Virus record (IMG/VR): IMGVR_UViG_3300008267_000285
Span: 1 to 34,876 of that record
Source of the DNA: a virus
Strand: one strand, 5' to 3'
DNA length: 34,876 nucleotides
A program made the position numbers and the translations under genes. Shown here in pieces: positions 2,627 through 34,702 of the stretch; the first letter of the stretch is position 1, and each line of letters opens with the position of its first letter. The notes below the pieces were generated by a model. It was not told the origin of the DNA and ran no database searches. It saw only the letters and a list, made by a program, of their open reading frames with translations.

Positions 2627-2658
2627 CCCAAAGAAAGCTAACAATAGCTTGACCACAT

Positions 2659-2690
2659 ACTCCCACTCTGCTAGTATGCCGAGTGGGAGT
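2659..2690 (+). terminator. Strong hairpin between metallopeptidase and polymerase genes
   Basis: A perfect 10-bp stem (ACTCCCACTC at 2659-2668 with GAGTGGGAGT at 2681-2690) and a 12-nt loop. The downstream TCTCATTT is only a weak U-tract, so it is either a terminator or a processing/stability hairpin in the polymerase leader. Confidence 0.6.
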
Positions 2691-7420: not shown

Positions 7421-7765
7421 GTGGATAATCGTTATGAAGCGCGACCTTGGGGATATTACGTAATATTATCAGACGATAAGTATGCTAAAACAAAAAGAAT
7501 CTGTGTGCATCCCGGTCATAAATTAAGCTACCAGATGCATTATAAGCGCAGTGAAGTTTGGACAGTTGTTCAGGGTAGTGGTTATGTAGTTATAAACGGT
7601 GAAACACTAAGAGTTAATACCGGATCAGTTGTACATATTCCTGCAACCTACAAACATAGAATTTGTAATGATCACGAATCGGATCAACTTCAATTCATAG
7701 AAGTTCAATATGGAGAGTATTTCGGTGAAGATGATATTGTAAGATTTAATGATGATTACGGTTAA
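7421..7765 (+). CDS. Stand-alone cupin of the mannose-6-phosphate isomerase type II C-terminal family, 114 aa
   Basis: The sequence follows the cupin half of bifunctional GDP-mannose pyrophosphorylase/mannose-6-phosphate isomerase almost throughout: RPWGYY near the start, IC-VHPGHKLSYQMHYKRSE with the metal-binding His and Glu residues, VVQGSGYVVINGE, HIPATYKHRI and a VQYGEYFGEDDI end. Only this roughly 110-aa domain is present, without a nucleotidyltransferase part. GTG 7421 is chosen because AGGAG ends 5 nt upstream. It probably isomerises or binds a phosphosugar, perhaps linked to nucleotide-sugar metabolism or surface glycans, but substrate and role are inference. Confidence 0.9.
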   Translation: MDNRYEARPWGYYVILSDDKYAKTKRICVHPGHKLSYQMHYKRSEVWTVVQGSGYVVINGETLRVNTGSVVHIPATYKHRICNDHESDQLQFIEVQYGEYFGEDDIVRFNDDYG

Positions 7766-7777
7766 TGATGATTACGG
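7746..7777 (+). repeat. 16-bp perfect tandem duplication across a stop codon
   Basis: TTAATGATGATTACGG occurs twice head to tail (7746-7761 and 7762-7777). The first copy encodes the end of the cupin; the stop codon lies at the start of the second. It looks like a recent slippage event. Confidence 0.85.
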
Positions 7778-7820
7778 TAGAATCTAACTAATTAATGTAG
7801 TTTTTTAATAAGGAGAAAAA

Positions 7821-8168
7821 ATGAAAGTAACTAAAGATTATTTAAAACAAATCATCTTGGAAGAACTGAAAGCGTCTTCCTTAGAAGAAGTTCAAAAAAA
7901 TCGTGAAATACCACAAGAAAATTATCAAACAACAATTGATAAATTAAGTGAAATTATTAGAATCTCGCAAGAAACAGTAAGAGATCATCTTGATAAAAAC
8001 AGTTATCAACAATTTCTAAAAGCTATAGGGCCAGTAATGCAGTTTAGAGACGAGCTTAAGAAAAAATTAACACCACCTAAACCAATTGATTGGGGCAAAG
8101 GCTCAATAGAGAAGAGAAGGCCGGAATTCGATCCATCAGGAGAACACGCCGGAACCGCGCCAGTCTGA
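7821..8168 (+). CDS. Tagged helical hypothetical protein, 115 aa
   Basis: The N-terminus MKVTKDYLKQIILEELKAS is one of the clearest examples of the shared tag. The remainder is helical (TIDKLSEIIRISQETVRDHL ... FLKAIGPVMQFRDELKKKL) and ends in a Pro/Gly-rich tail. AGGAG lies 7-8 nt before ATG 7821. No enzyme domain is recognised. It ends just before the hairpin at 8189-8238, which could terminate its transcript. A virion-associated role is inferred only from the tag. Confidence 0.8.
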   Translation: MKVTKDYLKQIILEELKASSLEEVQKNREIPQENYQTTIDKLSEIIRISQETVRDHLDKNSYQQFLKAIGPVMQFRDELKKKLTPPKPIDWGKGSIEKRRPEFDPSGEHAGTAPV

Positions 8169-8180
8169 AAATAAAAACGC

Positions 8181-8209
8181 TTGTCAACTGCCACTTCATG
8201 TGATACAGT
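8181..8209 (+). promoter_or_regulatory. sigma70-like promoter overlapped by a perfect inverted repeat
   Basis: TTGTCA at 8181-8186, a 17-nt spacer and TACAGT at 8204-8209. The left arm of a 15-bp inverted repeat (8189-8203) fills almost exactly the -35/-10 spacer. A start near 8216 would fall just before the Shine-Dalgarno of the gene at 8228. Confidence 0.5.
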
Positions 8210-8243
8210 CTCTATATGGAGGCTCACATGAAGTGGCATTTTT
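8189..8243 (+). terminator. 15-bp inverted repeat with T-run: terminator and possible operator
   Basis: TGCCACTTCATGTGA (8189-8203) and TCACATGAAGTGGCA (8224-8238) are perfect complements with a 20-nt loop, followed by TTTTT (8239-8243). Read-through transcripts from upstream would form a terminator-type hairpin whose loop holds the Shine-Dalgarno (GGAGG 8218-8222) and whose right arm holds ATG 8228. Transcripts from the embedded promoter would lack the left arm and stay unfolded. Confidence 0.65.
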
Positions 8244-8455
8244 CACATTCAGATCTATCGATCAACCCAACCACAAGCAAGGCACAATCATCAACAACTG
8301 TTGTCATAGAACTAGACGACAAGGAGATGGTACTGTATACTTCGGAAGTTCCAGAAGAGCACGTTGTCAGCACTAGGAAAGCTCTAGTAGACAGTGGCAA
8401 TCTTCTACGCCGTATTGGCTTAGAAATGCTTCGCAAAGCTGAAAAAATTAATTAG
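8228..8455 (+). CDS. Small hypothetical protein, 75 aa
   Basis: I start it at ATG 8228, 5 nt after GGAGG, rather than at the in-frame ATG 8216 that overlaps the Shine-Dalgarno. The protein has a basic/His N-terminus, a beta-like core (STTVVIELDDKEMVLYTSEVP) and a C-terminal helix (LLRRIGLEMLRKAEKI). I do not recognise it. Its start codon and first codons form the right arm of the inverted repeat at 8189-8238, so expression from upstream transcripts should be blocked and a private promoter used. Confidence 0.7.
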   Translation: MKWHFSHSDLSINPTTSKAQSSTTVVIELDDKEMVLYTSEVPEEHVVSTRKALVDSGNLLRRIGLEMLRKAEKIN

Positions 8456-9620: not shown

Positions 9621-9924
9621 AACAAGAAAGAAATATGTTATTTTCTTGGATGATGGTTATCACGCCAAACTTATCCTAAAGCTATTACAGGATAATATAA
9701 AACAAAATAACCTATTTAGATCTTTCATAGAAGCTTATATAAACGATGACCCAACCATCCGTAAATGGATCGATGGTTTATCTGATAATCAGAAAAGTGG
9801 TTATATCCTCAAGAAACGTAAGGAACAAGAGAGATATTTAGCAGCACAAGAAAAAATGTTTAACCTTGATCAAAACGATGTTGATCAAATATTTGACATC
9901 CTTGCGGATGAATTTGGTGAATAA
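9598..9924 (+). CDS. Hypothetical 108-aa protein, possible transcription cofactor
   Basis: Basic N-terminus (MPRTRYGKTRKKYVIFLDD), helical middle (FRSFIEAYINDDPTIRKWID) and acidic C-terminal end (DVDQIFDILADEFGE). It overlaps the preceding gene by 23 nt, and its TAA shares a base with the ATG of the sigma-like gene (TAATG), so the two are probably made together. Size, acidic tail and partner suggest, by analogy only, a coactivator such as T4 gp33 working with a phage sigma factor. A ribbon-helix-helix-type DNA-binding protein is the main alternative. Confidence 0.75.
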   Translation: MPRTRYGKTRKKYVIFLDDGYHAKLILKLLQDNIKQNNLFRSFIEAYINDDPTIRKWIDGLSDNQKSGYILKKRKEQERYLAAQEKMFNLDQNDVDQIFDILADEFGE

Positions 9925-10169
9925 TGGACTATTTAGGGTGCACCGATGAGTGCAAAAATGAAAAAAAAGCATGTTCCAAAGAATCATGCAGACATTGGAT
10001 ATCTTACGAAGACGATCACAATTGCAGTATTATTGCTGCCGAAAGGGGTCCATTGACACTTGACGAAGTATCAAAAAGGATGGGTTTATCCCTTATAAGA
10101 ATAAAACAGATACAAGATAGCGCTTTGGAGAAAATTAAGAAGAGAATTCTACCAATTCTGCACGAATAA
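9924..10169 (+). CDS. Sigma70 region 4-like HTH protein with Cys cluster, 81 aa
   Basis: Residues about 42-74 (GPLTLDEVSKRMGLSLIRIKQ, then IQDSALEKIKKR) match the helix-turn-helix of sigma70 region 4, which reads -35 elements and binds the RNA polymerase beta flap. The N-terminal part has five Cys residues (positions 6, 10, 17, 22, 34) around an HWISYEDDHNC segment, probably a metal site. No region 2 is present, so this is a minimal sigma or anti/co-sigma piece. It is coupled to the 108-aa gene by a 1-nt overlap. Likely role: switching transcription to later phage promoters (inference). Confidence 0.85.
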   Translation: MDYLGCTDECKNEKKACSKESCRHWISYEDDHNCSIIAAERGPLTLDEVSKRMGLSLIRIKQIQDSALEKIKKRILPILHE

Positions 10170-16610: not shown

Positions 16611-16931
16611 ATGGATAATAATTTCGAGTTTCGTGAACTTGAAGCGGTAATGATGGAAGTGAAATTAAGCACTGAACGCATGACTGCAAAGTTAGAACAA
16701 CTTGGAGATTCTATCCATAAGTTAGAAACTTCTATTGCTAGAATTGATAACGCTCTCTCATCTCAGGAACGTAGACTTATCATAGTTGAACAATCCATAC
16801 CAAGAGATCTACTGCAAGACTTAGCATTAATTAAAAATGCACAAGCTATGCAAACAAAACTTATATGGCTTGTAGGCACCGCTGCAATAACTGGATGGTT
16901 AAAAACTCTTTTTAATTTGATTTCTAACTAG
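16611..16931 (+). CDS. Coiled-coil protein with C-terminal membrane helix, XhlA/holin-like, 106 aa
   Basis: Residues about 8-65 form heptad-rich coiled coil (LEAVMMEVKLSTERMTAKLE, IHKLETSIARIDNAL) and the C-terminus (IWLVGTAAITGWLKTLFNLI) a single membrane helix. This layout and size match the XhlA haemolysin/holin-associated family of phages. ATG 16611 is set by a near-perfect Shine-Dalgarno, AAGGAGGTG, 6 nt upstream; the GTG at 16602 lies inside it. It follows groEL and precedes a terminator. The lysis role is inferred from architecture; a tail-anchored structural protein is possible. Confidence 0.75.
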   Translation: MDNNFEFRELEAVMMEVKLSTERMTAKLEQLGDSIHKLETSIARIDNALSSQERRLIIVEQSIPRDLLQDLALIKNAQAMQTKLIWLVGTAAITGWLKTLFNLISN

Positions 16932-16947
16932 CCTTGTGTTAGTATAT

Positions 16948-16980
16948 GCGGGAGGTGGCTAGTGCTGCTTCCCGCTTTTT
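16948..16980 (+). terminator. Intrinsic terminator after the groEL unit
   Basis: GCGGGA (16948-16953) pairs with TCCCGC (16970-16975), followed by TTTTTATTT. It shows that an in-frame ATG at 16946 is not a real start. Confidence 0.8.
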
Positions 16981-16993
16981 ATTTGGAGCTAAT

Positions 16994-17296
16994 ATGCAAG
17001 TTAAGATAAGTTTTACAGTTGGGATTGAAGAAGTGCCAAGGAAAGTTGATGAACAATTGCTTTGGTGCTTAAAAGAACTTGACGCAGTACAAGATTCAAA
17101 ATATTACGAAGTCACTGACAAAAACATTGTTCAAACAATAGATTGGATTGAAAGAACAAGGAAGCTGCTGCTACAGGTTGACACAAGGATGGCTGATTGC
17201 TATTCTATCCTAACTGGCTACAATAAAGCGCAAGCCGATAGTATCGCAGCTAGAGATAGCGGAGTAGATGATGGCGACTCTGGTTCGCAATCCTGA
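16994..17296 (+). CDS. Hypothetical protein, 100 aa
   Basis: ATG 16994 is chosen because TTGGAG lies 5-9 nt upstream, while the in-frame ATG at 16946 is inside the terminator hairpin. The protein is alpha-helical (VDEQLLWCLKELDAV, VQTIDWIERTRKLLLQVDTRM) with an N-terminal strand (MQVKISFTVGIEEVP) and an Asp/Ser/Gly-rich tail. No family recognised. A promoter for the next gene lies in its last third. Confidence 0.75.
   Translation: MQVKISFTVGIEEVPRKVDEQLLWCLKELDAVQDSKYYEVTDKNIVQTIDWIERTRKLLLQVDTRMADCYSILTGYNKAQADSIAARDSGVDDGDSGSQS
17178..17206 (+). promoter_or_regulatory. sigma70-like promoter inside the 100-aa gene
   Basis: TTGACA at 17178-17183, a 17-nt spacer and TATTCT at 17201-17206, about 62 nt before the start at 17268. 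Confidence 0.45.
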
Positions 17297-20961: not shown

Positions 20962-20989
20962 ATCCACCATACAGAAATGTATGGTGGAT
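20962..20989 (+). terminator. 11-bp hairpin between 20940 and 21006
   Basis: ATCCACCATAC (20962-20972), a 6-nt loop and GTATGGTGGAT (20979-20989), followed by TTTCTATTTATT. The stem is perfect. It is likely a terminator, and it makes the in-frame ATG at 20958 an unlikely start. Confidence 0.75.
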
Positions 20990-21005: not shown

Positions 21006-21701
21006 ATGAAATTATACTTTAATCATGAAATGGGATTTGGTAAGATGCAGCATGAGACAATGCTGTATTATCCATTTGGCGCCACTTTTGAGCCCCATGA
21101 AAGAATAAATGCTCTTGAGACTGGTTGGTTTCCGATAAATAATGTGATGTGGTTCCAATCACGATCAACTAGGCTTGATCTAAGAAAATACGAACCATCA
21201 GGTAAAGTATTAAAGCTTTCCAAAAAAATTAAATACTACCCCGATGTCAACATGACACCCTCTAAAAAATATAGATTAGGGGAGATATATAAAAAATACA
21301 TTGAATATAAGAAATTTCGCGATCAAAGTCTAACAGTAGATGATATGATCAGTAACAGCCACGGTCATATATACTATGCACATGAAAATGAAATCATAGG
21401 CTTTTCTTTTTATAAAATATTAGGAAGCAATTATTTAAGTATAGAATTTGCTTGGGATTATAAACATCCATCATTGTCACTTGGACACGTCAGCATTTAT
21501 CTTGAAAGTCTTTTTGCAAGAAGTCACAGATGCAATTATATGTATCTATCCGCAGGATATGAGAAATGTTCTTTGTATAAAGCGGATTACAAAGGATTTC
21601 AGTGGTGGAAAGGCTATGAATGGTCAGAAGATGTTGACACTTTTAAGAAGCTATGCTATAACGATGAGAAGGTGGTTATAAACAATTTTGAAAACATATA
21701 G
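21006..21701 (+). CDS. Arginyltransferase-like GNAT protein, 231 aa
   Basis: ATG 21006 is taken after the hairpin. The last third (LGHVSIYLESLFARSHRCNY, MYLSAGYEKCSLYKADYKGF, WWKGYEW) resembles the C-terminal GNAT half of arginyl-tRNA-protein transferases (LGxxSxxxEIxxARxLGxxYxYLGYxIxxxxKMxYKAxFxP). A part upstream (TPSKKYRLGEIYKKYIEYKKF) also fits that fold. The N-terminal zinc/Cys part of true ATE enzymes is missing. It may transfer an amino acid or acyl group to a protein N-terminus, altering host protein stability; this is inference from partial similarity. Confidence 0.6.
   Translation: MKLYFNHEMGFGKMQHETMLYYPFGATFEPHERINALETGWFPINNVMWFQSRSTRLDLRKYEPSGKVLKLSKKIKYYPDVNMTPSKKYRLGEIYKKYIEYKKFRDQSLTVDDMISNSHGHIYYAHENEIIGFSFYKILGSNYLSIEFAWDYKHPSLSLGHVSIYLESLFARSHRCNYMYLSAGYEKCSLYKADYKGFQWWKGYEWSEDVDTFKKLCYNDEKVVINNFENI
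21634..21662 (+). promoter_or_regulatory. sigma70-like promoter inside the GNAT gene
   Basis: TTGACA at 21634-21639, a 17-nt spacer and TATAAC at 21657-21662 (5 of 6), 26 nt before the start at 21688. Confidence 0.6.
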
Positions 21702-31478: not shown

Positions 31479-31505
31479 AGCAGGGGCCGGGGGAATCCGA
31501 TGTGG

Positions 31506-32582
31506 CTAGGACTTGACAGCCTTCCGACTGAGCATGGTCTTCATATGGTCGCGGATACTGACACCATCCACCGTCAACTTGTGAAGGGTAAGAATAAACG
31601 GCAGAAGATCCTTGTCGCTTGACACAGAAGTATAGAACTTCATGGCAGCCTCGCTGGGTAGGGTCAGGTAGTAGCGACCGATGTTGCTGATCTGACTCTC
31701 GGTCAACTCACCCTTCAGCTTGCCAGAAGAAATAAACTTGTCAACCATAGCAACGTGTTCATTCAGCTTGAAACCCTTCGTCTTCCCAACACCATCGCGG
31801 AGGATATCGTCAGGGGTCACAAGGTTTTCATACTTGTCGGCATGGTCGCGGAGAGCGATGGCCGCCTCAAAGCCAACGAAACCATTTGCAAGATTATAGA
31901 CAGTGTTTAGATTGGCCTTGAACTCACCCGTCAGGAGCTTGGCGGAATCCACAGTGTGGCTCAGACGCTCCCATGAACGGCGGGAGGGGTAGACCTTGCC
32001 CGGCTCAAACTCCTTGCGATGCTCAAGGTGGGCGGGATTGTGACGGATGAAATCAAGGATCACCTCATTGAGGCGACCAACACCATAAGTCAACCAATCC
32101 TCGACAGACGGCTCAACGTCAAAAACAGTCCAGCGGTCAAGCTCGGCAGGGTCCATGTCGTTCACCTGATAATTTGCAGCATGGACGCCACCGTTAACAG
32201 CGGCAAAAAGGAGGGTGTCAGGGTGCAGCCTGTGACCATTGAGGGTGCGGCTATCCGCAAGCTGGAAGAAGCCCTGACGGACCTCAGTTGTTGCACGGTC
32301 AATCTCGTCCATGAAAAGAACAACAGCCTCACGGCAAGCCTGCTTGTACCAGTCAGGGGGATTCCAAGCGGTCGAGTCACCGTCAATAACAGGGAGGCCA
32401 ACAAGGTCACCCTCAGTCATCTGCGATGCACGACGCTCGACAACAGGCAAGCCCTTGCCCTTGGCAAACTGGTAAACAAGCTCGCTCTTGCCAACGCCGT
32501 GTGCGCCACGGATCATCACGGGGTAACGGCTATCCGCGACAAGGTGGATGAAAGAGTTAAAAGTCTTGAAGTCAATCGCCAT
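31506..32582 (-). CDS. MoxR-type AAA+ ATPase, 358 aa
   Basis: Walker A GAHGVGKS (26-33), Walker B VVLFMDEIDRA (87-97), sensor-1 Asn130 in LLFAAVN, and QVNDMDPAELDRW with the arginine-finger region following, as in MoxR/RavA-type ATPases. These ATPases use ATP to remodel proteins, usually paired with a VWA-domain protein, and such a gene lies directly upstream in the same direction. The C-terminal half is helical. A minus-strand promoter lies at 32655-32627. Its DNA is richer in G+C than all genes to the left. Role in the phage unknown; assembly or a host-takeover chaperone is possible. Confidence 0.93.
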   Translation of the reverse strand: MAIDFKTFNSFIHLVADSRYPVMIRGAHGVGKSELVYQFAKGKGLPVVERRASQMTEGDLVGLPVIDGDSTAWNPPDWYKQACREAVVLFMDEIDRATTEVRQGFFQLADSRTLNGHRLHPDTLLFAAVNGGVHAANYQVNDMDPAELDRWTVFDVEPSVEDWLTYGVGRLNEVILDFIRHNPAHLEHRKEFEPGKVYPSRRSWERLSHTVDSAKLLTGEFKANLNTVYNLANGFVGFEAAIALRDHADKYENLVTPDDILRDGVGKTKGFKLNEHVAMVDKFISSGKLKGELTESQISNIGRYYLTLPSEAAMKFYTSVSSDKDLLPFILTLHKLTVDGVSIRDHMKTMLSRKAVKS

Positions 32583-32626
32583 GTGCTGCCTCGCTTGTTG
32601 ACGGCGGGATGCCGTCGATGGGGTGG

Positions 32627-32655
32627 AATGTACTGCCTGCCTACCTATCTGTCAA
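32627..32655 (-). promoter_or_regulatory. sigma70-like promoter for the MoxR gene
   Basis: On the minus strand TTGACA (32655-32650), a 17-nt spacer and TACATT (32632-32627). It lies 45 nt before the start codon and follows GC-rich hairpins in the 232-bp gap. Confidence 0.55.
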
Positions 32656-32761
32656 GTGTCTGCGGAACTTTTTCTTTTCTCTAGTGCGTCGGAACAAGTG
32701 AACATTACAGGGGATGGGGCTGCCGGTCAAGGGTTTGCACGATGGAAAAGGGCAGTATTTA

Positions 32762-32799
32762 GGGGGCTAGCCCCCCTTGTGACCACCTTTTTCGGGTGG
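32762..32799. repeat. GC-rich palindrome and hairpin between the VWA and MoxR genes
   Basis: GGGGGCTAGCCCCC (32762-32775) is a perfect 14-bp palindrome; CCACC (32783-32787) and GGTGG (32795-32799) form a second hairpin around TTTTTCG. A close relative of the first dyad is at 34735-34750. It may act as a terminator or processing site for the VWA transcript. Confidence 0.65.
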
Positions 32800-32814
32800 C
32801 CGGGGGTTGACAGC

Positions 32815-33996
32815 CTAGCGCCGCTTCCGCTTTATCTCAATGACAAGCTCGTTTGACTTGAAGTATGGGCTGTTCTTGCCATCCTCGTCAGTCAGCCACA
32901 ATCGGCGGGTGCGACAGGGGACAGGCGCAGGGGCTTGCATATCAGTTAAAACAATCATTCCATCAATGTGTGGATTCGCATTCACCCACTTCGTCGGGGC
33001 ATCAAAATCAGTGCCACCGCACATAACCCGCTCGACCTTGTGGGCCTTGCCCTTCTGCCACTCGTAGACAAGAGATTCACCCACCTCAGTATCAAACGGA
33101 ACAACGGTGAATGTGGCAAGTTTAGAAAGATTGTTCAATTCGGCAAAGAACAATCCAAGCAATTCATCACTGACGCTGCCGCTCTGGTCAATAGCAATTG
33201 CAAGGTGGGCGGTGCGGTTCGTCTTCCGCCCGGCATGGATATAAGGGAAACGCTTGTTGATCCGCTTGATCGTGTTGGAGCGGTTGGATCGCTGGCTCTG
33301 ACCAATGAAGTTTCGGAGGACGGCCCGCCAATCAATGCCACCATTGACGAAACGCATGATCGCCTGCTTCACGCTTTCATGCATATTGCCGAAACCGTTG
33401 CTTGCCTTTGCTGCTTGTTCCACACCTTGACGCATCGCCTCGCGGAGCCGTTCCTTGGCGATTGCACGGGTTTCAGCATCAATAGGGTTTAGGCCACCGT
33501 CTTCACCCCATCCCTCGTGGGAGTCAAGGGTTTCACCGTTTCCATCCTCTCCACCCTCACCGTCAGCTTCCATCTTGTCCGAAAGCAAATCAAAATATTG
33601 TTCAGCGGAGAGGTAATCCTCAAACCCATACTTGCTGGGAAAAACACCCATCTCAGGAATCTCGTCCTTGATGTGGCAATTGATCGCCATATCAGTTGCC
33701 ATGTTCCACTGGCGGGATATCTTCTTCCCATCGGGCGAGCGACCAAAACAATGCTCAAAAATGAGGTGATAAAACTCATGTTTGAGGACACCTGTCCGCT
33801 GCTTCTCAGGGAGCTTGCCCATCCACTCTGGGTTGTATGCAAGATCAAAGTTGCCATCATCGGTGATGCGGACACCGGCAGTTGGCACAATCTTTGACGC
33901 CTGCTTGCTCACCTGACGGCTGATTGCCGCAAAGAAAGGCTCATCACGCAGGAGGCGATAGCAGTCGTTCTCAAGGTCGTATTCAGCGTCGCTCAT
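32815..33996 (-). CDS. VWA-domain protein with HEFYH peptidase-like N-terminus, 393 aa
   Basis: ATG at 33996 (MSDAEYDLEND) has GAGGT upstream and follows the previous stop by 34 nt; an upstream in-frame ATG (34074) overlaps the other gene. The N-terminal half resembles the DUF2201 predicted metallopeptidase domain: LKHEFYHLIFEH (H73-E-x-x-H77) and QWNMATDMAIN. After an acidic linker and a basic region, a VWA-like domain has the MIDAS residues AIDQSGSVSD (Asp270), GGTDFD and VLTDM. These proteins form a pair with MoxR ATPases (COG3864-like). It is probably the substrate-recognition part of a remodelling machine. Confidence 0.92.
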   Translation of the reverse strand: MSDAEYDLENDCYRLLRDEPFFAAISRQVSKQASKIVPTAGVRITDDGNFDLAYNPEWMGKLPEKQRTGVLKHEFYHLIFEHCFGRSPDGKKISRQWNMATDMAINCHIKDEIPEMGVFPSKYGFEDYLSAEQYFDLLSDKMEADGEGGEDGNGETLDSHEGWGEDGGLNPIDAETRAIAKERLREAMRQGVEQAAKASNGFGNMHESVKQAIMRFVNGGIDWRAVLRNFIGQSQRSNRSNTIKRINKRFPYIHAGRKTNRTAHLAIAIDQSGSVSDELLGLFFAELNNLSKLATFTVVPFDTEVGESLVYEWQKGKAHKVERVMCGGTDFDAPTKWVNANPHIDGMIVLTDMQAPAPVPCRTRRLWLTDEDGKNSPYFKSNELVIEIKRKRR

Positions 33997-34030
33997 GGAA
34001 ACCTCAGTGGGTGGAGAGGAGGGGGACCTG

Positions 34031-34654
34031 TTAGGACTCGTCGGGGAGGATGGGGGCGACCTGTGTTTCGCCACGGGTCAGTCTTTCGGAGATGTGGAAA
34101 GGCTTGAGCAACAGTTGACGGTCAATCTCATCTCCACCAGATGGTGACAGGATCTTTGCGGGCTGATTGAAACCGTAATAGTGGGGACCTATATTCTTCT
34201 TGAAGGCAGGCAGATCCGCCATGTTGAAATAGGCGATGCTCTTGTTTCCAGTGCCGTCAAGGCTTCTCACATACAGTCTAAGCATAGATCCAAAAGGTCG
34301 AGCATGAATCCTTAGATCAGTGTTTGCAAACGAATCGCCATCAAAAGCACTCTGTAGATAGGTTGCAACTGCCTTGGATCGCCGCACATTGTAAAACTCA
34401 GCAAAGTTATAGTATGTGTCCGCAAAGGCTTCGTTGATATCATGAACCATGTGCGGCACAGGATTCTCACCATACATATCAGGAACACTGATGATTGCAC
34501 CCGTGCCAACCCCGCTTTCGATCAGCTTGCGTAGGGTCCAGTAACGCTGGTATCCTACATGGCGACGCGCAGCATCAATTGTTTTTGCTACAGCCTCGCA
34601 CTTGGAAAAGTTGTGCATCGAACTACGGCAGTACCCGCAACGTCGCGTCGTCAT
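34031..34654 (-). CDS. Zinc-knuckle protein, 207 aa
   Basis: The N-terminus RRCGYCRSSMHNFSKC is an exact CX2CX4HX4C zinc knuckle (Cys6, Cys9, His14, Cys19), the nucleic-acid-binding module of retroviral nucleocapsids and RNA-binding proteins. The remaining 185 residues are an unassigned alpha/beta domain (GAIISVPDMYG, NEAFADTYYNFAEFYNVRRS, MLRLYVRSLDG, SIAYFNMADLPAF). The start has AGGAGG 7 nt upstream and a promoter just before it. First gene of the leftward unit that includes the VWA protein; perhaps a nucleic-acid or ribosome-directed partner. Confidence 0.8.
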   Translation of the reverse strand: MTTRRCGYCRSSMHNFSKCEAVAKTIDAARRHVGYQRYWTLRKLIESGVGTGAIISVPDMYGENPVPHMVHDINEAFADTYYNFAEFYNVRRSKAVATYLQSAFDGDSFANTDLRIHARPFGSMLRLYVRSLDGTGNKSIAYFNMADLPAFKKNIGPHYYGFNQPAKILSPSGGDEIDRQLLLKPFHISERLTRGETQVAPILPDES

Positions 34655-34673
34655 CCTTGCCTCCTGTCCATCC

Positions 34674-34702
34674 TATGTATCGCAGGGATCGGCTGGTGTC
34701 AA
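34674..34702 (-). promoter_or_regulatory. sigma70-like promoter for the zinc-knuckle/VWA unit
   Basis: Minus strand TTGACA (34702-34697), a 17-nt spacer and TACATA (34679-34674), 19 nt before the start codon. Confidence 0.5.

Follow-up and report, generated by a model that had tools for sequence, protein, structure and literature searches.

The window analysed here is a 34.9-kb virus record from IMG/VR (34,876 bases in full) whose genes lie almost all on the + strand. Searches against Pfam identified dnaE, a clpP-like gene and a cupin gene, and reading of the translations added dUTPase, groEL-like and hsp20-like genes. The cupin gene and a gene for a 115-aa protein lie upstream of the element described here, which occupies positions 8181-8243 between the end of the 115-aa gene (8168) and the gene for a 75-aa protein (ATG at 8228). 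The 3′ end of the cupin gene contains a 16-bp tandem duplication (7745-7780; TTAATGATGATTACGG x2), and the cupin protein of the window ends with DDYG, in relatives with DDYGRV or similar.

The 75-aa protein belongs to no Pfam family, and nothing convincing was found for it in PHROGs. Its structure model (pLDDT 73) is a low-confidence fold, for which no significant structural match was obtained.

Anatomy and folding of the element

The features of the locus and of the related sites discussed below are given in Table 1. The initial annotation had described a perfect 15-bp inverted repeat with a T-run, a TTGTCA-N17-TACAGT promoter with its spacer in the left arm, and a right arm covering the ATG at 8228 with the Shine-Dalgarno (SD) sequence in the loop. 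All of these coordinates hold on the sequence. The arms pair at 15 of 15 positions across 20 intervening nucleotides, seven of the 15 pairs are G-C, and TTTTT comes next. The loop is itself folded: GTCTCT and GGAGGC form a second helix, absent from the earlier description, that buries the SD. Both the left arm and the anti-SD strand stop 5′ of the predicted transcription start at ~8216. The in-frame ATG at 8216 is a less likely start codon than 8228, and every homologue aligns from 8228.

Table 1. Positions of the element, of the gene behind it and of related promoter-hairpin sites (window numbering)
Feature	Position	Strand	Basis or remark
-35 hexamer TTGTCA	8181..8186	+	sequence; L003 and L019 have TAGACA in this position
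-35/-10 spacer, 17 nt	8187-8203	+	sequence
Left arm TGCCACTTCATGTGA, within the -35/-10 spacer; anti-start-codon strand	8189..8203	+	conserved, both-side change
Extended -10, TG-A-TACAGT	8201..8209	+	TG 8201-8202; TACAGT 8204-8209; TGTGATATAGT in L003 and L019
Anti-SD strand GTCTCT, inner helix	8208..8213	+	fold; covaries in L003 and L019
Start site predicted for the inner promoter, ~8216	8215..8217	+	predicted from the -10 position
SD GGAGG (8218-8222) and the following C, forming the 3′ strand of the inner helix	8218..8223	+	sequence, fold
Right arm TCACATGAAGTGGCA, with ATG (8228-8230) and next codons	8224..8238	+	repeat search
T5 run after the stem, within the earliest codons of the gene; may serve as the tail of an intrinsic terminator	8239..8243	+	
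75-aa protein gene	8228..8455	+	predicted beta-beta-beta-alpha
dnaE promoter TTGACC-N17-TAGTAT, TG-extended; repeat ACTCCCACTC (2659-2668) / GAGTGGGAGT (2681-2690)	2649..2690	+	-10 in the loop, no T-run
Layout A site: -10 TAGTAT adjoins terminator hairpin 16948-16975, T5	16917..16980	+	before the gene at 16994
Layout B example in G011: CTTTACATTCT[AGACACCCTATGG]tatgtttt[CCGTAGGGTGTCT]TTTTTGTGGAG			

Among perfect repeats with a loop of at most 40, the arm pair is the longest in the 34,876 bases. Dinucleotide shuffling of the entire window, done eight times, gave longest repeats of 9-14, with one arm pair of at least 12 in all. The RNA of positions 8170-8250 folds with -32 kcal/mol (z -6.6), a value equalled by none of 200 shuffles. 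A tRNA search at the element found none, and Rfam covariance models applied to it in L001, L003 and L019 gave no match even at E 5.

The predicted inner promoter agrees with the sigma70-type consensus at five of six positions in the -35 and four of six in the -10, plus the TG. Such matches have no local significance, as a simple scan of the window found 12 of them with 16.5 expected. The match gains weight because it is conserved in relatives and because promoters of this kind are biased in strand, with 81 sigma70-type matches on the coding strand vs 28 antisense in three genomes.

Regarding termination, a simple terminator scan misses the element, and the hairpin script used for the phage group finds the stem together with TTTTT. 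As in intrinsic terminators, a G+C-containing stem is followed directly by a U-run, but in place of their short loop (3-8 nt) the element has 20 nt closed by a 6-bp inner helix.

The predicted probability of being unpaired was 0.026 for the SD and 0.001 for the AUG in read-through RNA vs 0.448 and 0.513 in RNA beginning at ~8216. The predicted hairpin energy changes from -31.3 to -4.4 kcal/mol once the RNA begins at the nested promoter. Polymerase arriving from the cupin and 115-aa genes would make RNA with both arms, and this read-through RNA would fold such that both start codon and SD are buried in the 15-bp stem and the 6-bp inner stem. Many read-through transcripts of the window would also stop at the T5 that follows the stem. 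A polymerase starting at ~8216 would produce RNA lacking the left arm and the anti-SD strand, so that termination would not occur and the start would be exposed. Since the inner RNA would be open and the read-through RNA blocked, the gene at 8228 would follow its own promoter only. The expectation that RNA from the inner promoter lacks the left arm and can be translated agrees with the predicted accessibilities (SD and AUG free at 0.45 and 0.51).

We consider it likely that the element is an insulated sigma70-type promoter nested in a hairpin and that only RNA begun at this promoter is used. Sequence and statistics establish the anatomy of the element, its conservation, its persistence where the gene has been lost, its absence from homologues of the gene without the promoter, and the enrichment of such sites across the group. 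Use of the promoter, its start site, termination and the translational block are all parts that we infer, as is the purpose, which would be the insulation of the gene in time or in dosage. Alternatively, the ~21 bp of stacked helix in the read-through RNA could be a processing site for RNase III, an enzyme that can cut a helix of about 21 bp, or could be an mRNA stability element. We regard this as quite improbable: it leaves the place of the promoter in the left strand unexplained, and likewise the T-runs of the other cases described below.

Relatives with and without the element

Homologues of the 75-aa protein were found in L003, L016, L024 and L005 (76, 43, 35 and 31% identity, respectively). 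L003 (76% protein identity) is the one close homologue in IMG/VR, and a further genomic homologue lies on one MAG contig, without the element. In L003, a TG-extended promoter TAGACA-N17-TATAGT is combined with the arms AAGCGCCACTTCGTG / CATGAAGTGGCGCTT and an SD helix GTTTCT/AGGAGC, while one extra small hairpin in the loop increases the distance between the arms to ~44 nt. This loop hairpin (L003:4969-4990, TTAGCCTAATGGATAGGCAACAG) resembles a tRNA D-arm, as does the loop (GCCTAATGGATAGGC); tRNA and Rfam searches gave nothing.

A third case, L019/L027, was obtained from a scan for the promoter together with the left arm. L019 has the same promoter as L003, a perfect stem, the SD helix GTTCCC/AGGAAC and the small hairpin with pair changes. 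Its 75-aa gene is deleted down to MKWRFYHF* and the element is whole (remnant at L019:2262-2400); a nucleotidyltransferase-like gene, judged by reading of its translation, follows directly after the remnant. The element is thus carried by three sequences only, two of which come from one sample. The exact left-arm pattern gave no carriers in viral contigs beyond the known relatives, and the other matches to looser arm patterns were chance occurrences inside coding sequence.

In six remoter homologues of the 75-aa gene (about 28-43%) both the promoter and the hairpin are absent, and two of these genes stand directly behind another gene. Hence, promoter and hairpin come and go together. Predicted accessibilities of SD and AUG were 0.24-0.74 in homologues without the element, much like those in the inner RNA of the window; for L003 they were 0.012/0.019 in the read-through RNA vs 0.283/0.347 in the inner RNA. 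The element region folds with -35.8 kcal/mol in L003 and -40 kcal/mol in L019.

Among the window, L003 and L019, three pairs are changed on both sides: two belong to the SD helix, and at codon 4 a U-A pair has become C-G. In these three sequences 90% of the cells are paired in the given register vs 38-53% when the strands are slid; the corresponding shuffle control was not significant (83/500). We take the pairing kept through both-side changes as support, not proof, of a conserved RNA structure. From the -35 to the right arm, L003 and L019 are 89% identical, compared with 64% for the upstream gene and 71-79% for the downstream genes.

These comparisons bear on the suggestion that the repeat is an operator, on which a dimeric repressor bound to both arms would control the promoter. 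An inverted repeat does overlap the promoter, and its arms are almost identical between relatives. The fixed half-site spacing of an operator is absent, however: the arm distance differs by 24 nt among relatives (20 vs ~44), while the RNA pairing including the inner helix is kept. Moreover, changes in the arms preserve pairs, the separate inner helix covaries too, no second copy with at most two mismatches occurs in the window, and the group's other nested hairpins are unrelated to the element in sequence. We therefore judge an operator, which the initial annotation had raised as a possibility, very unlikely.

It could also be argued that coding sequence and promoter coincide and that the pairing has no function, since the codons MKW partly fix the right arm and the conservation is partly coding. 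The promoter spacer would not be expected to match codons, however, the element is kept in three genomes, and the repeat, fold and group statistics all speak against chance. A coincidence appears least probable of all the explanations considered here.

The tail behind the stem is TTTTT in the window, TTTTA in L019 (GCTTTTATC; intermediate) and TTTAA in L003 (GCTTTAATC; weaker), a series of three sequences. It matters for the view that the element is only the terminator of the upstream unit abutting the next promoter, with the hiding of the start codon as a by-product. The T5 and the strong stem in the window are consistent with this view, nested terminators are frequent in the phage group, and L019, with the tail TTTTA, keeps the element where there is no gene start to hide. 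Yet L003 has a poor U-run (TTTAATC) and has kept the start-codon pairing and the covarying SD helix, and a loop of 20-44 nt is unusual, the nested terminators of the group having mostly 3-13 nt. We hold such a terminator-only function to be rather unlikely.

The converse, a pure translational lock of the T4 gene e type without termination, would fit the finding that the AUG and SD helices are conserved with both-side changes and the U-run weakens in the relatives. The hairpin was kept in L019 despite the gene loss, however, the window has the T5, and nested terminators are used elsewhere in the group, and so we consider this explanation equally doubtful. The persistence of the element in L019 argues that hiding the start codon is not its sole function, or else points to a recent loss of the gene.

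With a U-run that is good in the window, fair in L019 and poor in L003, we regard the translational lock as the conserved part of the proposed insulated promoter and termination as a second layer that is likely in the window, although it may be weak at this site. The initial annotation had stated that transcripts entering from upstream would terminate or hide the start codon. Hiding is supported by predicted accessibility and conserved pairing; termination is plausible from the stem and the T5 of the window, with U-runs of TTTAA in L003 and TTTTA in L019. Its further claim, isolation of the downstream gene from read-through, is largely supported, as a read-through lock, by comparison and computation; its termination part is plausible, with a U-run that weakens in the relatives.

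Predicted promoters nested in terminator-like hairpins across the phage group

Several of the sigma70-type matches in the three-genome scan fell inside terminator-like hairpins. A first count, in which the folding around promoters was examined, was too permissive, because 12 of 28 antisense promoters passed too. It was replaced by a count in which hairpins with a U-run were listed first and a promoter with its predicted start inside was then sought. The survey covered 11 related records (~0.9 Mb); the element of the window was excluded by the filter and its L019 homologue was included.

A promoter with its predicted +1 inside the hairpin was found for 25 of the 98 coding-strand terminator-like hairpins of the 11 related contigs. 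The frequency was 4.1% in random windows (p 1.6e-13), 0/30 for hairpins on the antisense strand and 2/98 when the same hairpins were read on the opposite strand. Permutation of the upstream 45 nt and of the loop, with the arms kept, gave 3.2 expected cases and a maximum of 13 in 20,000 simulations. The predicted starts peak in the final 20 nt of the right arm, with sixteen there and nine in the preceding 20 nt; bins further upstream contain 0-4 each, and the 20 nt after the hairpin contain none.

Two layouts were distinguished. Layout B (15 cases, including the G011 example of Table 1) is that of 8181-8243: the spacer contains the left arm, the loop contains the -10, and the start falls within or close to the right arm. 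In layout A (10 cases), the -10 adjoins the left arm and the start falls 4-9 nt into it. RNA begun at the nested promoter loses the hairpin in layout B (mean energy from -21.3 to -0.6 kcal/mol) and mostly loses it in layout A (-18.6 to -6.6 kcal/mol). At 16917-16980, a layout A site of the window, the predicted start lies inside the left arm. The order promoter, hairpin, T-run and SD is found in front of the orthologue of gene 16994 in six other phages as well (seven in total), with unrelated stems. The dnaE promoter is fused to a hairpin in three of 11 relatives (the window, G001 and G004), so conservation is partial; G001 and G004 have terminator-promoter fusions of different sequence at the same place, and the inverted repeat of the window measures 10 bp.

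The element at 8181-8243 is therefore not isolated, and it is the most compact example found. Elsewhere in the group the same principle would apply, with intrinsic termination as the main role of the hairpin. Whether terminator-embedded promoters are the regular gene punctuation of this uncultured phage group is, in our estimate, an even question: a single hairpin of ~30 bp would both terminate one RNA and launch the following one, which would insulate each unit from read-through, and polymerase released there would already be at the next promoter and could restart. The element at 8181-8243 would be the extreme form, in which the hairpin encloses the start codon too. Neighbouring genes are close and on the same strand, and a terminator with an inner promoter could give each its own level and timing for ~30-60 bp and would also block read-through. 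Restart at a promoter inside the terminator may be of benefit as the shortest possible distance for the polymerase.

Among eight isolate phages, five of 69 hairpins were nested, three of them in Felix O1. Nesting is accordingly not unique to the group and, at this sensitivity, rare in T4, T5, N4, SPO1, KVP40, P-SSM2 and phiEco32. In Felix O1 (NC_005282; L127, L130), promoter-like sequences were nested in three of the six terminator-like hairpins tested, and reading of NC_005282 showed one of these matches to be the annotated terminator t13 (7947-7994).

Known systems and further features of the window

In the insertion sequences IS10 and IS50, the outer end sequence of read-through RNA pairs with the ribosome binding site (RBS), and RNA from the inner promoter lacks this pairing. 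These are mobile elements with terminal repeats, whereas the element described here has neither a transposase nor a terminal repeat.

The nearest parallels are found in phages. For T4 gene e (lysozyme), the block on the long early RNA is about 100-fold, and promoters lying in the 5′ strand of the helix yield RNA that is translated (PMC3014915). As in T4 e, soc and 49, where a helix of the upstream-initiated RNA hides the SD and/or AUG (PMC3014915), the element is predicted to hold its SD and AUG in a stable helix of such RNA. In the T4 e leader, the promoters lie just 5′ of the RBS, in the DNA of the 5′ strand, and give RNA without the block (PMC3014915); RNA from the promoter of the element, with its predicted +1 at ~8216, would likewise lack the 5′ strand of the helix. 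The T4 promoters are of the phage late class (TATAAATA, gp55), whereas the element has a host-type promoter (TTGACA/TATAAT); moreover, the T4 e case has no terminator tail and concerns a different gene. For I-TevI, I-TevII, I-TevIII, segB and Aeh1 mobE, too, RNA from the promoter is without the left strand of the RBS-hiding hairpin (PMC2988022). Hairpins of the I-TevI type lock mobile endonucleases, whereas the gene behind the element encodes a small phage protein for which no domain is known. The hairpin of the element is also one of many in its genome, most of them with terminator tails, unlike the I-TevI type. The preferred reading is hence a read-through lock of the T4 e and I-TevI kind plus a probable terminator.

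According to the genome paper on Felix O1, it is not known by what means transcription passes the numerous terminators of this phage (PMC3185647). Felix O1 resembles the group in having promoter-like sequences inside or next to an intrinsic terminator; this nesting is not described in the genome paper (PMC3185647), and, in contrast to the element, no start codon lies in the hairpin. No description of a promoter inside a terminator in phages was found in the open-access papers searched. While the lock mechanism is a known T4 device, the systematic nesting of predicted promoters in terminators looks undescribed in that literature.

What appears new is the fusion of predicted promoter and terminator at about one quarter of the terminator-like hairpins in 11 contigs, with unrelated hairpin sequences, which would allow units to be insulated one by one within a compact phage genome. 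Nesting could also explain how transcription in Felix O1 proceeds beyond its numerous terminators (PMC3185647). In vitro, RNA polymerase that is retained on the DNA once intrinsic termination has occurred can initiate again from a promoter close by (PMC6978380, PMC11347151), and the nested sites offer a natural setting for testing re-initiation by post-termination polymerase (PMC6978380).

We noticed several further features of the window. Positions 9924-10169 encode a protein of 81 aa that contains several Cys residues and a sigma-70 region 4 domain (Pfam 1.6e-8); it is present in nearly all relatives and is possibly a transcription regulator of the phage group. The region 31500-34700 contains, on the - strand, an AAA ATPase and VWA-like metallopeptidase (DUF2201) pair. 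Its G+C content reaches 52-55% vs about 29-43% in most of the remaining sequence, which we read as either an acquired segment or a composition island. The protein encoded at 21006-21701 matches the C-terminal domain of arginine-tRNA-protein transferase (Pfam 5e-6), and a similar ORF is present in L019. A longer ORF is listed for this gene, but its start overlaps a terminator-like hairpin at 20962-20989, so that the gene probably begins at 21006.
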